Assembly (NCBI GenBank): GCA_021773635.1
Contig: JAJFJV010000043.1
Coordinates: forward strand, 1 to 34,063
DNA from: Gammaproteobacteria bacterium
GTDB taxonomy: Bacteria > Pseudomonadota > Gammaproteobacteria > HK1
Reading direction: 5' to 3'
DNA length: 34,063 nt
Shown: one piece after another, positions 8,352 through 31,949 of the stretch
Layout of the letters: the number at the start of each line of letters is the position of its first letter
Numbering within the stretch: the first letter of the stretch is position 1
Program-made: the position numbers and the translations under genes
The notes under the pieces: model-generated
The model's database searches: none
Seen by the model: the letters and a program-made list of their open reading frames with translations, nothing else
Told to the model about the DNA's origin: nothing

Positions 8352-9968
8352 TTACTCCTGCTCGCGTACCCGCTCAAAGTAGCGCCCTATGAGCTCTGCC
8401 TCATCGAAGTGACGCCGTCCCACAAAGGCAGTGGCGTGATGCCCCCATTGGCGCATGGCCCCGGGCGACACGATTCCCATGGGCCAGAACAGCCAGCGTT
8501 CCCGACGTTCACTACCAGCCACCAGCGCATGGGGACCAAACAGACTGCGCTGCCCGCCGTCCGGCAAAGGCAGTGATCGCAATTCATCATAATCCCGCCA
8601 CTCGAAGCGCACGTCGGCCGATGGATCCGCTTCAAAATAGATCCGGCGCAGGTAATGAGTGCCAGCGGCGACACGGATAACCGCTCGCCCGGGAGGCGCG
8701 GCGGGCAATACCTGCGGTATCAACAATGCCTCTTCATGAACATCCGGGGCCAGCGGCCGCTGGCGCAACTGTGCAGTGGGAAAGAACATGTGGTAGCAGC
8801 CGCAAAGATGCATGCTGTCGTAGATGAGCGGTACGCCATGCCGATCCAGCGTCACCCGCCAGACTATACCGTCGAGATGGCCCCCCAGCAGGTCCAGAGG
8901 CCCGGTACGCGGGCGTGCCGGAAACCACACCATATAATTAAGCTGCAGCAACACCTCGCCTTCGAAACGGGTCTGGGAAACCAGGCGGAAAACTTCCGGT
9001 CGATCGGTATCCACTTGCGGCCGGTCGCCGGTAGCCCATACCGGCGTGCCAATACCATCGGCCTCGGACACGGTATCCACTTCCCACAAGGGCGCAAAGT
9101 GATTGAAAAGCTTCTCCCGTGCGATCGGCGACAGGTGATACATTCCCATCGGTCCGGAGCGCGCCTGGGTCAATAATTCCGCAAGCTCCTGAGATGGCAG
9201 GGTGGTAGGCAGTACGCGCCGCATCACTGACCAATCAAAAGCCGCCAACTTCCCAAAATCCTCTAGCGATAAGGAGGTCAGTTGTTCCGGAGGCCCGTAA
9301 CGCCGCCATTGTCCCCATGGCTTTGCCGCTACCGGCGCCGCAAAACCACGGGCCAGGTCGCGGTGCAGGGAGGCAACACCCGCCTTGAAAATGAGCGAGG
9401 TCAATGGATAGAGGCCGAAGGTCCGGCGCAGCAGGCTGTAATCATCGGGGACACGGGCGCGGGCGCGCAGGTGGCGGCGTTGTTCGGGATTCTCCAACTC
9501 AGCCGCTAGCAACTCGCCGCACTGGGCTGCATATGCCATCAGTTTCTCGCGGTCCATGGGTACGGGGTCAGGCAGATTCGTGATCTCGACACGGCGTCCC
9601 TGCTGGTCCAGCGCACGCAACGCAGCCACCCAAGCGGAAAATTTTTCCACCTCATCCACCTCGGGCACCATAGCGGCAAGGAAACGGTTAAGGCGTAGAT
9701 AGGGATAGACGGGAATAGGAGCTGCCTGCACGTCCATCACGCCGGCAGCGGCCACCCGCTTATCGATATTGAAAAACAAACGGGCGCACGAGGCGTATAC
9801 GTCATCAGTATCGAGAAAGCGCTGCGGTGGGTCGATACTCCGGGGCGTGGCACAGGCCGCCAACAGCAGGGCGAGCAGCGGTGCCAGCAAAACCCGCGGG
9901 AGGAAAAGCTCAGCTTGCGGGTGCCGGCTCCGTATGCAGACCGAGACTGGCGAACAGTTTCTGATCAT
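8352..9968 (-). CDS. Large predicted lipoprotein of unknown function
   Basis: I do not recognise a family. From the ATG at 9968 it is 538 residues, with a hydrophobic stretch [19 protein letters not shown] and a lipobox LAAC at C39, so it is probably an envelope lipoprotein. A TTG at 9890 gives a very short 12-residue leader, but neither start has a good ribosome site. The ATG lies inside the 3' end of bioB (59-bp overlap). The mature part is globular and rich in Arg, Trp and Tyr. Near the middle is a conserved-looking segment [20 protein letters not shown] followed by [10 protein letters not shown], where clustered His/Cys residues could bind metal. It has no obvious link to biotin synthesis beyond its position after bioB. 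Confidence 0.8.
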
Positions 9969-10899
9969 CGCTGGCCCCCTGATTGTCGGTGGTGAGCAGG
10001 CGATCACCGTAAAACACCGAGTTGGCACCGGCAAAGAAACACAGCGCCTGGGCCTCATCGGACAGTGCCTCGCGCCCGGCGGAGAGACGAAGGTGGGATT
10101 GCGGCATAAGAATGCGCGCCACCGCGATAGTGCGCACCAGTTCCAGCGGCTCTAGCGGCGGCGTATCGGCCAGCGGCGTACCCGGCACCGGCACCAGCAT
10201 GTTGACCGGCACGCTCTCCGGCGGCGGGTTCATATTGGCCAAGGTCTCCAGCATCCCGGCACGATCCTCACGGCCCTCGCCCATGCCGATAATGCCACCG
10301 GAACAGAGCTTGAGCCCCGCGCCGCGTGCCTTGCCCAGAGTATCAAGCCGGTCATCATAACTGCGCGTGCTGATCACCTCAGGATAATATTCCTCCGAGG
10401 TATCGATATTATGGTTGTAATAATCCAGCCCGGCCTCACGCAGCGCCTCCGCCTGCTCGGGCTTGAGCATGCCGAGGGTCATGCAGGTCTCGAGCCCGAG
10501 GGACTTCACCCGTTCAACCAGCGCCGCCACCTTTGGCACATCACGATCTTTAAGCTCGCGCCAGGCCGCACCCATGCAGAAACGGCTGGCCCCGGCATCC
10601 TTTGCCGCTTGCGCAGCCTGCTCTACCTCTTCCACCGGAGACAGCTTCTCTACTTGGAGTTTCGTGGTGTAAGACGCGCTCTGGCCACAATATTTGCAGT
10701 CCTCGGCACACCCACCGGTCTTGATAGACATCAGGGTGCTGAGCTGCAGGCCATTGGCGTCCCAATGCTGCCGATGCACGGTGTGGGCCCGGTGCAGCAG
10801 GTCGTTGAAGGACAGTGCATAGAGTTCGAGAATCGCCTCCCGGCTCCAGCCGGCTTCGGCGGGCGCGGAAGAAATTGTGGCGCGTTGGGTACTTTCCAT
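9910..10899 (-). CDS. bioB: Biotin synthase
   Basis: Radical SAM enzyme that inserts sulfur into dethiobiotin, the last step of biotin synthesis. The 329-residue protein has the SAM cluster motif CAEDCKYC with C64, C68 and C71. It also has the conserved RFCMGAAWR and [13 protein letters not shown] segments and SAGRE with the Arg that coordinates the auxiliary [2Fe-2S] cluster in characterised enzymes. Starts 32 bp downstream of bioD on the same strand, so very likely cotranscribed with it. Its 3' end may overlap the start of the lipoprotein gene. Confidence 0.98.
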
Positions 10900-11724: not shown

Positions 11725-12249
11725 TTACTGTTGCTGGCGAAGGATCAGCGTACCGTCACGCTGGATAAGCTCCAGTTTGCGCAAAAAACTCATGCCTAAC
11801 AGTACCTCGTTGCCCTGCATGTAGGGATTGATGCCGGCACTGATATCGCGCAGTTTGATGGCTCCCAGTTCGACGCTGTCGAGGCGGGTGAGGTAGGTGG
11901 AGATCGTTCCATTGGCGGTTTGTGTGCGGGTGGCCGGGCCTTCTTTCAGGCCGATACGCCGGGCCAGGCTTTGGGGCACTGAAACGGTGGAGGCCCCGGT
12001 ATCGAGCAGGAACACAACCTCGTGGCCGTTTATGGCACCCTTCGCCAGATAGTGCCCCCGCCGGTTTTGCTGTAACCGGGTTTCTGCAGCGCCATTGCCC
12101 AAAGTACGACTGTTTAGGGCCTTGTTCGGATTGTGCTGCCAATCCAGCAGGTTGCTGAATAACAGACTCAGCAAGCCAAGCACACCGAGCCAGGTGAGCA
12201 CGATCATGGTGCCACCCAGGCGTTTTACTTGCTTCTCATCCGAGTCCAT
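11725..12249 (-). CDS. Membrane-anchored retropepsin-like aspartic protease
   Basis: The 174-residue protein has one N-terminal transmembrane segment (about 14-34, GTMIVLTWLGVLGLLSLLF) followed by a single retropepsin-type domain with the active-site motif FLLDTGAS (about 80-87) and the second conserved block VLLGMSFLRKLEL (about 149-161). This matches the clan AA aspartic protease family found in proteobacteria (the TIGR02281 type). Such proteins should act as dimers, since each gives one DTG. The domain is probably periplasmic. Substrate unknown. It sits between the cytochrome gene and bioD and has no evident link to biotin synthesis. Confidence 0.9.
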   Translation of the reverse strand: MDSDEKQVKRLGGTMIVLTWLGVLGLLSLLFSNLLDWQHNPNKALNSRTLGNGAAETRLQQNRRGHYLAKGAINGHEVVFLLDTGASTVSVPQSLARRIGLKEGPATRTQTANGTISTYLTRLDSVELGAIKLRDISAGINPYMQGNEVLLGMSFLRKLELIQRDGTLILRQQQ

Positions 12250-12409: not shown

Positions 12410-13804
12410 TTAACGCTGCCTAGGAAGCGTCTGGACGTAGGCCAGGATGTTCGTCAGGGTTTTCATCCCCAGGGCTCGCAGGGCCGGCATGGCCTCGTCA
12501 GGATGACCATTGATCATCTTGTGCAGTGCCTCCTGGGGATTTTTCCGGGTGGTCCGGCCCAGTGGCGAGATGGTGGTAACCAGGGTGCCATCAAGTCCGT
12601 GGCAAGAGGCACAAATGGTTGTGTAAAGCGCTTTGTCCTTGGTTCTGTCTCCCTTGGCCAATCCCGACATGTAGTCAATGTATTTATTCATATCAACCTG
12701 GCCGGCACTGACGAAATTTGCCAGATCATGGAAATCCTGCACCGAAAGGATGTTCCCATAGCGATGATTATCATCTTTGAGAATGGCAGTGATAGAACCA
12801 AGGTCGGAACCCGATCTGTTCTGGATGCCTTTGATACCGGTGAAATGTATCCCCGCGGAGAAAACGCCATCCCGCCCGAGGTAATCCCATCCGTGGCATT
12901 CCTTGCAACGCCAGTTGGTCAGCGGTTTTTTGGCAAATTTTTCGGTGATGGGATAAGCCGGGTGTCTCTTGTTTGGCGGGTAATCCGGACCGGCATTCGA
13001 TAGAAAGAATTCCCCGAGTTCCTTACGCCAGTTGTCATATAAACGGCCACCGCGAACGATGGAGGACATGATTTCACCATCGGGCAAGTTCTGGATATAG
13101 GCAAGGATATCGACCAATATCTGACGATCCAGAACCCGGAGAGCAGGCATTTTTTCCGCCGGATGACCATTGAGAATCTTGTGTAGCGCCTCCCAGGGAT
13201 TATCGCGGGCAATATCTCCAAGGGGGAGGATGGTCTGCAGTTTGTATCCGTCCCGGCCGTGGCATCCGGCGCAGATCGACTTGTAATAGTCCCGACGTTT
13301 CGAGATATCTCCCTTGGCCATTTTAGTTGCACGGTCGATATATTGATTCATATCAACCTGTCCCTTGCTCACAAAGTTGGCAATATCCCGGAAATCCTCA
13401 TCGACCATCAGTGGACCGTATGCGTGGGTGGCATCTTTGAGTACAGCAACAATTTTCTCGGGGTCCTTTCCCGCCATAGCCTGTATTCCCTTGATCCCGG
13501 TTGCGTGGTTACCTTTGCCATAAACACCCTCCCGGCCCCGGTAGTCCCAGCCATGGCACTCCTTGCACCGCCAGTTGGTTTTTGGATCTGCAGCGTAGGC
13601 CTTGTCAACCGGATAGGCCGGATGTGCCCGCGCGGGTGCGCGTTCCCGGGTTTCTTCATACCAGTTGTCATAGAGCCGTCCACCACGGGCGATGGATGAC
13701 TGCAACTCTCCCGCAAAAACCGGAGATGGCGTAATAACGACTACCCCAAATATGAGCACAACCAGGGCAGGAAACGATTTTGCAACATCCAGTAAAAAGT
13801 TCAT
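12410..13804 (-). CDS. Periplasmic tetraheme c-type cytochrome made of two duplicated diheme units
   Basis: The 464-residue protein has a signal peptide (hydrophobic FPALVVLIFGVVVI, cleavage likely after VFA, residue 31) and four CxxCH heme sites: CKECH at 80-84, CAGCH at 178-182, CKECH at 300-304 and CASCH at 398-402. The spacing is exactly 220 residues between equivalent sites, so the gene is a tandem duplication of a diheme module. Each module starts SSI-x-RGGRLYDNW and ends with a KMPALR/AMPALR Met, likely the axial ligand of its second heme (M219, M439). The second copy has nine extra residues before its first heme. Start at the ATG giving this signal peptide; an upstream start at 13867 would spoil it. 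Likely an electron carrier; partner enzymes are not nearby. Confidence 0.93.
   Translation of the reverse strand: MNFLLDVAKSFPALVVLIFGVVVITPSPVFAGELQSSIARGGRLYDNWYEETRERAPARAHPAYPVDKAYAADPKTNWRCKECHGWDYRGREGVYGKGNHATGIKGIQAMAGKDPEKIVAVLKDATHAYGPLMVDEDFRDIANFVSKGQVDMNQYIDRATKMAKGDISKRRDYYKSICAGCHGRDGYKLQTILPLGDIARDNPWEALHKILNGHPAEKMPALRVLDRQILVDILAYIQNLPDGEIMSSIVRGGRLYDNWRKELGEFFLSNAGPDYPPNKRHPAYPITEKFAKKPLTNWRCKECHGWDYLGRDGVFSAGIHFTGIKGIQNRSGSDLGSITAILKDDNHRYGNILSVQDFHDLANFVSAGQVDMNKYIDYMSGLAKGDRTKDKALYTTICASCHGLDGTLVTTISPLGRTTRKNPQEALHKMINGHPDEAMPALRALGMKTLTNILAYVQTLPRQR
12419..13699 (-). repeat. Internal duplication within the cytochrome gene
   Basis: The coding segments 13070-13699 and 12419-13066 encode two homologous diheme modules. 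The protein blocks GGRLYDNW, NWRCKECHGWDY, TGIKGIQ, GQVDMN and EALHK-x-x-NGHP recur in the same order. The DNA has diverged at third positions, so the duplication is old rather than an assembly artefact. Confidence 0.9.
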
Positions 13805-30968: not shown

Positions 30969-31949
30969 TTACGGCAGGCGCCAGCGCTGGGCAACTCCGT
31001 GTGCGGTCGCGCTAATGAATTCCCGTTCGCCCTCGGAAAAGGCAAGGGAAAGTACTATTGCCGCGCCGGGGCGCCAGCCATGATTCAACTTTGGTCGCCA
31101 GCGCTGCACCTTGAGACCGGTATCGATATCCCACAGGATAATGCCTTGCCCTGCATGGCCGGTCAGCAGACGTTGGTCTTTAGAGGAAAAAGCGGCTGCG
31201 GAAACACGTGCCCCACTGCTTGGCAAGGTGAAGCGGAGCTCGCCACTGCCAGTATCCCAAATCTGCGTCTCTCCCGGGACCTCGTTGGTTAGCGCCAGCG
31301 CACCACTGGGAGAAAGGGCGACATAACGCACCGGATGTGCATGCTGCCACAGGTGTAGCAGATCGCCATTTTCCAGACTCCAGAGCTTTACGATCCCGTC
31401 CTCCGAGCCGGTGAGCGCATAACGTCCATCACCCGAGAGTGCAACGGAGCTCACCCGCTCTCGATGACGGAATACCCAGCGAAACTGGCCCGTTCCCAAA
31501 TCCAGATACGTGGCAAGGTTGTCCTTAAAGCCAATAAGCGCATAGCGACCCCTGGCTGACACAGCGATGTCACGTATGGGCGGAAGAACCCAGAAACCAA
31601 GGTGCTTTCCCGTATCAATCTTCCACAGGGCAAGGGTCTCGCGCTCAGCGGTGAGAACGAATCGACCATCTTGGGAAAATTCACTATCGATAATTCCCCC
31701 ACCTTCCTCTCCGGTATGTTTGAGGGTGTGGAGAAGCCGGTTCTTCGAAACGTCCCAGAGTTTTGCGTAGCCATCCACAGAGGCTGCGATGGCATACCTC
31801 CCGTCGTGGGAAAGCGCCGCCGAATAGACTCCTTCCGGGGCATGCTCCCACGTAGCAACCGCCTGCTCCCCGAGCTCGCAACCCGCCAGCAAGAGGCTAA
31901 AGAACAATAGCGCTGCATACGCTACAGGATTAGCTTTGCTCAACAACAT
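30969..31949 (-). CDS. WD40-repeat lipoprotein
   Basis: The 326-residue protein begins with a lipoprotein signal (AALLFFSLLLAGC, lipobox LAGC at about C24) and continues as about seven WD40-type beta-propeller blades, seen as repeating GRYAL-, LWS- and -IWD/-LWDI- elements, for example DGYAKLWDVS and GIILWDIDTG. It should sit in the envelope as a scaffold. Its ATG lies inside the end of the ArsM-like gene (10-bp overlap) with GGCGGAGG immediately upstream; an in-frame TTG six bases later would give better spacing. The overlap implies coupled translation and a working link with the methyltransferase. Confidence 0.88.
   Translation of the reverse strand: MLLSKANPVAYAALLFFSLLLAGCELGEQAVATWEHAPEGVYSAALSHDGRYAIAASVDGYAKLWDVSKNRLLHTLKHTGEEGGGIIDSEFSQDGRFVLTAERETLALWKIDTGKHLGFWVLPPIRDIAVSARGRYALIGFKDNLATYLDLGTGQFRWVFRHRERVSSVALSGDGRYALTGSEDGIVKLWSLENGDLLHLWQHAHPVRYVALSPSGALALTNEVPGETQIWDTGSGELRFTLPSSGARVSAAAFSSKDQRLLTGHAGQGIILWDIDTGLKVQRWRPKLNHGWRPGAAIVLSLAFSEGEREFISATAHGVAQRWRLP

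Follow-up and report, generated by a model that had tools for sequence, protein, structure and literature searches.

A tetraheme c-type cytochrome in a biotin gene region, assigned to the tandem branch of a diheme family linked to NapC/NirT genes

The tetraheme c-type cytochrome encoded among the biotin genes of a 34,063-nucleotide stretch of gammaproteobacterial DNA (the window, from genome G000) is assigned by profile, paralogue and tree analyses to the tandem branch of a widespread, unnamed, NapC-linked family of diheme and tandem-diheme proteins. We consider it reasonably probable that the protein is a periplasmic carrier of this tandem family, fed by a NapC/NirT-type enzyme and serving terminal enzymes, and that its gene is an accessory cassette placed near the biotin genes by chance. 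As a general kind, multiheme c cytochromes that have grown through duplication of modules are already known; among the matches listed in a search of open-licence papers, none named or described the tandem family, whose diheme and tandem genes are presumably now labelled only 'c-type cytochrome'.

Two diheme modules in one chain

The gene lies on the minus strand at 12410-13804, encodes 464 amino acids from the ATG plus a stop codon, and is the only window frame of at least 90 amino acids that contains a CxxCH motif. Its features and those of its immediate neighbour are as follows.

12410..13804, minus strand: tetraheme c-type cytochrome gene (open frame, four CxxCH, Cytochrome_CBB3 match, omega 0.157 against the orthologue in congeneric genome G002)
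13712..13804, minus strand: putative Sec signal peptide, residues ~1-31 (by eye: hydrophobic core, then PVFA/GEL, the slash marking the putative cleavage site)
13076..13708, minus strand: diheme module 1, residues 33-243 (heme motifs at 80-84 and 178-182; Met219 in KMPALR; conserved His127)
12413..13075, minus strand: diheme module 2, residues 244-464 (heme motifs at 300-304 and 398-402; Met439 in AMPALR; conserved His347)
12983..13009, minus strand: nine-residue insert of module 2, residues 266-274, before its first heme (from the module alignment)
13553..13567, minus strand: heme motif 1, CKECH (from the sequence)
13259..13273, minus strand: heme motif 2, CAGCH (from the sequence)
12893..12907, minus strand: heme motif 3, CKECH (from the sequence)
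12599..12613, minus strand: heme motif 4, CASCH (from the sequence)
11725..12249, minus strand: retropepsin-like aspartic protease gene, TIGR02281 family, between the cytochrome gene and bioD

The original prediction had described four CxxCH sites in two equally spaced pairs, and this arrangement was recovered, with motifs starting at residues 80, 178, 300 and 398, that is 98 residues apart within a pair and 220 between pairs. The repeats it listed are likewise all present: GGRLYDNW at residues 41 and 252, NWRCKECHGWDY twice, KMPALR/AMPALR, and the nine extra residues ahead of the first heme of module 2, an insert shared with the G002 orthologue and aligned with a gap in the six other modules of alignment A1 and in the 26 other proteins of alignment A2. 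Its wording 'exact duplication' applies to the heme spacing but not to the sequence, as the modules are identical at 122 of 211 aligned residues (58%). Only 59 of these 122 residues are encoded by the same codon and nucleotide identity is 60%, indicating that the two copies are old. The similarity itself is far beyond chance, the global alignment of module 1 with module 2 scoring 634, whereas 1000 shuffles averaged -69 (sd 16) and reached -6 at best. The conserved His position (His127/His347) is kept in all 155 modules compared and the Met position (Met219/Met439) in 153 of them; within a module, the former is probably the sixth ligand of heme 1 and the latter that of heme 2. The protein is apparently exported, and the region of the putative signal peptide combines an omega of 0.56 (residues 1-32, G000 versus G002) with AlphaFold2 pLDDT values below 50 (residues 1-27).

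Profile scores are consistent with the CxxCH motifs and downstream Met in placing the protein in the class I-type c cytochrome superfamily. Cytochrome_CBB3 (PF13442) reaches 71.6 bits against a cut-off of 27 (E 7.1e-20, over three stretches) and Cytochrom_C (PF00034) 41.9 bits against 21.3, both being generic cytochrome matches, and no NCBIfam model reaches its own cut-off on the protein. A whole-protein score of 24.8 bits for DUF1924 (PF09086; cut-off 22.5), centred around heme 1 of module 1, likely reflects generic heme-motif similarity; no single stretch of the match passes alone, and 34 of the 96 profile positions are covered. A phmmer search of the PDB with the window sequence returned no chain below E 0.017.

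The fold of the chain was predicted with AlphaFold2 from 27 sequences (mean pLDDT 85.1, pTM 0.79; four other models 67.6-75.5). By VIA-align, the resemblance to class I cytochromes c lies in the second heme domain of module 2, most rows covering residues 369-464 only. The best match is the c domain of the cd1 nitrite reductase NirS, with a Z of 8.8 (rmsd 2.5, 80 residues), a score to be read with caution, since unrelated models often reach Z values close to 8 as well.

A family of one to four modules and its gene company

The origin by duplication of a diheme module, another claim of the original prediction, is supported by a single-module diheme paralogue (L002) on another contig of the window's genome, where it adjoins a NapC/NirT-family gene. 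The tetraheme protein matches this paralogue at 53% identity (E 1.3e-81), independently of module profile A1, which scores 374 bits on module 1 and 346 on module 2, a match that is partly by construction because the window's two modules are among the seven module rows of A1. Our first search for relatives gave a match in eight of 55 genomes, the window's own included, one of them (G025) weak and involving an ordinary diheme cytochrome. When named genomes were scanned, at least 591 pattern matches were obtained, of which 570 were confirmed and the best 80 loci kept; by record titles nearly all of the best 80 of 570 are proteobacterial (Alpha-, Beta-, Gamma-), with one Stygiobacter. These best 80 loci hold 94 module genes, comprising 64 with one module (three cut by the locus end), 28 with two, one hexaheme gene with three (L024) and one octaheme gene with four (L025). 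A gene of at least two modules occurs in 29 of the best 80 of 570 loci, a share of tandem forms that is inflated because the loci are the best matches to the window's module 1 and some share a genome or stem from sister genomes (L022 and L050 are both G002, L064 is the congeneric G001, L055 is G012 of the same GTDB family, L048 and L096 are one genome, and L041 and L043 are one species).

Broader sampling gave a match in at least 19 of 369 Gammaproteobacteria genomes, the window's genus included, and in at least 14 of 385 genomes from the class of Azospirillum halopraeferens, both figures being lower bounds since at most 7-8 candidates were scored per genome. By open-frame length and domain counts, eight of the 19 encode a protein of at least two modules (G000, G002, G052, G068, G100, G117, G315 and G332), and three of the 14 have more than one module per frame (G383, the chosen centre, together with G447 and G738). 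Plasmid records contained no match to the family at E 1e-10. Widespread tetraheme homologues with no diheme relatives had been named in advance as evidence against the duplication, and half of this picture holds: the tetraheme form itself is common and old, but diheme relatives are widespread too. Within this distribution, a Rhodospirillales locus (L025:7206-13416) carries diheme, octaheme and tetraheme family genes close together.

Phylogenetic analysis separated tandem from single modules. In a quick tree of 155 modules, which leaves out L011 and module pieces of fewer than 120 profile positions, the modules of the close tandem proteins all fall in one 69-row group (SH-aLRT 82) whose only two one-module rows are both cut by contig ends. 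Of the 77 one-module rows, 65 make up a second group (support 95) and 10 lie outside both. In a careful tree, which drops 95 of the 155 rows, 46 tandem modules are split from 14 single modules with support 99/95. A divergent tandem group on long branches (L117, L118, L124 and L128, with one single, L008) stands apart in the quick tree, so that tandem forms probably arose at least twice. Two of its members, L124 (G315:C3) and L128 (G068:C90), are divergent multi-module proteins with up to four module matches in frames of more than 890 residues, and apparently represent an independent expansion.

The window's own two modules are separate in the quick tree and have no supported place inside the tandem clade in the 60-row tree, and the AU test does not reject them as sisters, a tree with the two together even scoring better (p 0.734). 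These results taken together support neither that the two are sisters nor that they are not, and a recent, lineage-specific duplication, which had been considered, is therefore not claimed.

The residue marker that precedes the heme-2 Met fits the tandem/single split. Single modules carry Q (NGQP) in 61 of 70 cases and H in two, both from L023, one of these being a cut member of the tandem group, whereas every one of the 60 modules from two-module proteins, and six of the seven from three- and four-module proteins, has NGHP. The last octaheme module of L025 is without both the marker His and the Met. The marker is mixed among 18 divergent modules that were treated separately (nine H, six Q).

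The commonest linked gene observed for the family is NapC/NirT. Linkage was counted by a profile built from four seeds, which may miss divergent NapC genes, and for genes with more than 1 kb of flank on both sides in the best 80 of 570 loci. A NapC/NirT gene lies directly 3' of 42 of 56 such one-module genes and beside 12 of 26 two-module genes (upstream in 10), leaving 14 of the 26 without one, and for this reason NapC adjacency is a tendency of the family rather than its definition. Several loci, for example L032, L037, L041, L043 and L096, have the order diheme-NapC-tetraheme. Among cultivable carriers, Sedimenticola hydrogenitrophicus shows this full order and Terasakiella pusilla shows NapC-tetraheme.

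Other company of the family bears on the direction of electron flow. An alternative in which the cytochrome works oxidatively, passing electrons from a periplasmic dehydrogenase such as flavocytochrome c to terminal oxidases or another conduit without NapC, draws on a flavocytochrome c sulfide dehydrogenase flavoprotein gene found in 12 loci; in 10 of the best 80 of 570 (L034, L036, L044, L053, L062, L063, L080, L081, L087 and L097) this gene immediately precedes the module gene or its NapC. It also draws on five two-module genes (L061, L068, L075, L078 and L085) that have a gene for a multiheme protein with a cytochrome b561-like part at most 0.6 kb downstream, and on the cytochrome c oxidase subunit I encoded in the window's genome. 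Because of this flavocytochrome c or b561 company of some relatives the electron flow could be reverse, but the prevalence of NapC/NirT among linked genes argues against that direction, as does the scan of window ORFs, in which no flavocytochrome and no b561 protein turned up, and we regard the oxidative alternative as rather unlikely.

In the reading that we prefer, carriage from NapC/NirT to terminal enzymes, the support for the NapC step is gene linkage. No NapC/NirT gene was found among the window ORFs scanned, and so we infer the NapC partner from the paralogue's locus and from relatives. Beside the hexaheme gene of L024 lie two NapC-family genes and genes for a molybdopterin oxidoreductase and its Fe-S and NrfD subunits, and G012 has the order diheme-NapC/NirT-cd1 nitrite reductase, at a single place represented by L005, L018 and L055. 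Among L001-L131, whose frames were searched with the G012 NirS, this diheme-NapC-nirS order occurs in G012 only. Cytochrome d1 domain matches are present in 17 of 26 genomes chosen for carrying the family. In the three genomes of the window's genus, no cd1 nitrite reductase was found at E 1e-30, the multicopper oxidases score under the NirK cut-off, and a search for molybdopterin enzymes gave 5, 6 and 8 matches. A region of the window's genome (G000:C9:7967-11033, L159) holds two such sub-cut-off multicopper oxidase matches with a two-CxxCH cytochrome frame nearby, and possibly encodes a nitrite reductase or other oxidase.

The biotin locus and the standing of the gene

The minus-strand order is bioF - bioH - tetraheme gene - retropepsin-like protease - bioD - bioB, so that the cytochrome gene does split bioFH from bioDB as originally described, in company with the protease gene. 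The further observation that no redox enzyme gene is nearby agrees with a Pfam scan of the 27 other window ORFs, which revealed no recognisable respiratory enzyme. A WD40-repeat protein (30969-31949, minus strand), encoded directly downstream of a methyltransferase gene, scores 26.8 bits for Cytochrom_D1 against a cut-off of 25.5, far below its own WD40 score and probably owing to its beta-propeller. Elsewhere in the window, a large ORF overlapping the end of bioB (8352-10058, minus strand) has a counterpart of 62% identity at the equivalent position in G001; no Pfam family over cut-off and no NCBIfam match was found for it.

Comparison with the two congeneric genomes suggests that the biotin setting is incidental. 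In G002 the corresponding site holds a tetraheme gene of 84% identity that is interrupted by a single in-frame stop (codon 49); this stop may reflect dispensability, decay or an assembly error. In G001 the gene is absent from the site: the retropepsin gene follows the bioH frame after 43 bases, and a 186-aa ORF lies between the retropepsin gene and bioD. A search of the whole G001 genome gave the diheme paralogue as the only match and no tetraheme gene. Furthermore, the GC content of the tetraheme gene (0.529) is the lowest of seven local genes, the six others ranging from 0.575 to 0.624. The absence in G001, the stop in G002 and the low GC make the biotin setting look incidental, and the simplest reading appears to be an accessory gene, perhaps acquired, whose position near the biotin genes is due to chance. 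Gain in G000/G002 and loss in G001 both fit the three genomes compared. A promoter and terminator scan gave a single promoter-like site, located on the opposite strand, and two terminator-like sites, counts that shuffled sequence matched.

The same three observations could be read as marking a passing, decaying gene that has no current role in the genus and is kept in the biotin region by chance. Against this, the gene is unbroken in the window, and comparison of G000 with G002 gives an omega of 0.157 for the whole gene (module 1, 0.154; module 2, 0.098), indicating constraint during most of the period since these lineages diverged. The whole-gene value is similar to those of the neighbouring retropepsin (0.121) and bioH (0.207) genes, a cinA-like gene being lower (0.036), and we judge a gene without current role to be quite improbable.

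Comparison with known systems and proposed role

The best whole-chain match of the predicted structure in the PDB was TsdBA (5lo9, Foldseek E 6.3e-8), which consists of two diheme units, as does the window cytochrome; the active-site heme of TsdA has a cysteine ligand. That the protein is an enzyme rather than a carrier, for example of the thiosulfate dehydrogenase type (TsdA/TsdBA), would accord with this match, with weak phmmer matches to TsdA chains (E 0.19) and with the sulfide dehydrogenase genes adjoining some relatives, but it is very unlikely given the poor superposition on TsdBA (TM 0.21, rmsd 13.4) and given that all eight cysteines of the protein lie within CxxCH, so that it cannot supply a TsdA-type cysteine heme ligand.

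Resemblances to other class I-type proteins are more remote. The CcoP subunit of cbb3 oxidase shows profile similarity over module 1 (chain 8smr_G, E 4.7e-9), but the NCBIfam score of the window cytochrome is 34.1 bits against a cut-off of 179.95, and its diheme modules stand in tandem without an oxidase. For cytochrome c4, which has two class I domains, the profile match is weak (E 0.0034) and spans a single heme domain. A chain of homologous multiheme modules in tandem, with one His-Met heme per module, is also the design of the Geobacter periplasmic 'nanowire' cytochrome GSU1996 (PMC10138318), whose four triheme domains resemble periplasmic triheme cytochromes. Unlike GSU1996, the window cytochrome has class I-type diheme modules with two CxxCH each, and Cytochrome_C7 (PF14522) gave no match to it at E up to 1.

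The closest functional parallels are diheme carriers that partner NapC-type enzymes. In Azospira suillum PS, according to PMC5845722, genetic evidence identifies NapO and PcrO as redundant diheme carriers from NapC/PcrQ to the nitrate and perchlorate reductases, and that source gives both as homologous to the ethylbenzene dehydrogenase gamma subunit. In Stutzerimonas, PMC13086519 presents soluble diheme NirB as the partner of the NapC/NirT-type quinol dehydrogenase in the NirT/NirB system. For Rhodocyclus, PMC8954225 states that NirB occurs without nitrite reductase genes and gives no sequence test. Like NirB, NapO and PcrO, the diheme c-type genes of the present family adjoin a gene for a NapC/NirT-type tetraheme quinol dehydrogenase. 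The EB_dh domain (PF09459) gave no match to the window cytochrome (E up to 1) or to its paralogue (E up to 0.001).

The diheme-NapC-NirS order in G012 had raised the suspicion that the diheme relatives are themselves NirB. This identification was rejected, since the domain fused to NirT next to nirS in L203, the one fusion scanned, is EB_dh (PF09459), and the module profile found nothing in the tails of four NirT fusions (best match 5.5 bits, in the NapC part). Nor did the module profile find anything at E 1e-4 in the frames of L138-L202. From the NirT fusions and the published NapO/PcrO homology, rather than from its own sequence, the P. stutzeri NirB would be of the EB_dh type. The window cytochrome may thus have a role like that of NirB, NapO and PcrO while apparently not belonging to their family.

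At many gammaproteobacterial nirS loci (L138-L202) the frame encoding NapC/NirT is long, contains a fifth CxxCH and seems to be a fusion of NirT with NirB. At one further nirS locus (L206:1818-4811, G100:C1), the NirT frame apparently carries two near-identical tandem NirB (EB_dh-like) domains; this frame holds a run of N, and the double domain is possibly an assembly artefact.

As a periplasmic carrier, the window cytochrome would operate as follows. A NapC/NirT-type quinol dehydrogenase, encoded elsewhere in the window's genome next to the diheme paralogue, would oxidise quinol; the tetraheme protein would take up the electrons in the periplasm, either directly or via the diheme paralogue, and would hand them to periplasmic terminal enzymes, with module number setting the reach or the electron capacity of the carrier.

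More tentatively, and as a proposal that we hold to be possible rather than probable, class I diheme modules of the NGHP type may have been multiplied to two, three and four to form periplasmic wires of graded length that work with NapC/NirT, constituting a partner family non-homologous to NirB/NapO/PcrO and exchangeable between nitrite, molybdenum-enzyme, sulfide and b561-linked chains. Several respiratory chains are fed by NapC/NirT enzymes, and those neighbouring diheme carriers with published data or an identified domain (NapO, PcrO and fused NirB) are of the EB_dh type. If the proposal is correct, a carrier family of one to four modules would allow the effect of module number on electron capacity and periplasmic reach to be asked directly, and would give a testable role to genes that bear such a generic label.
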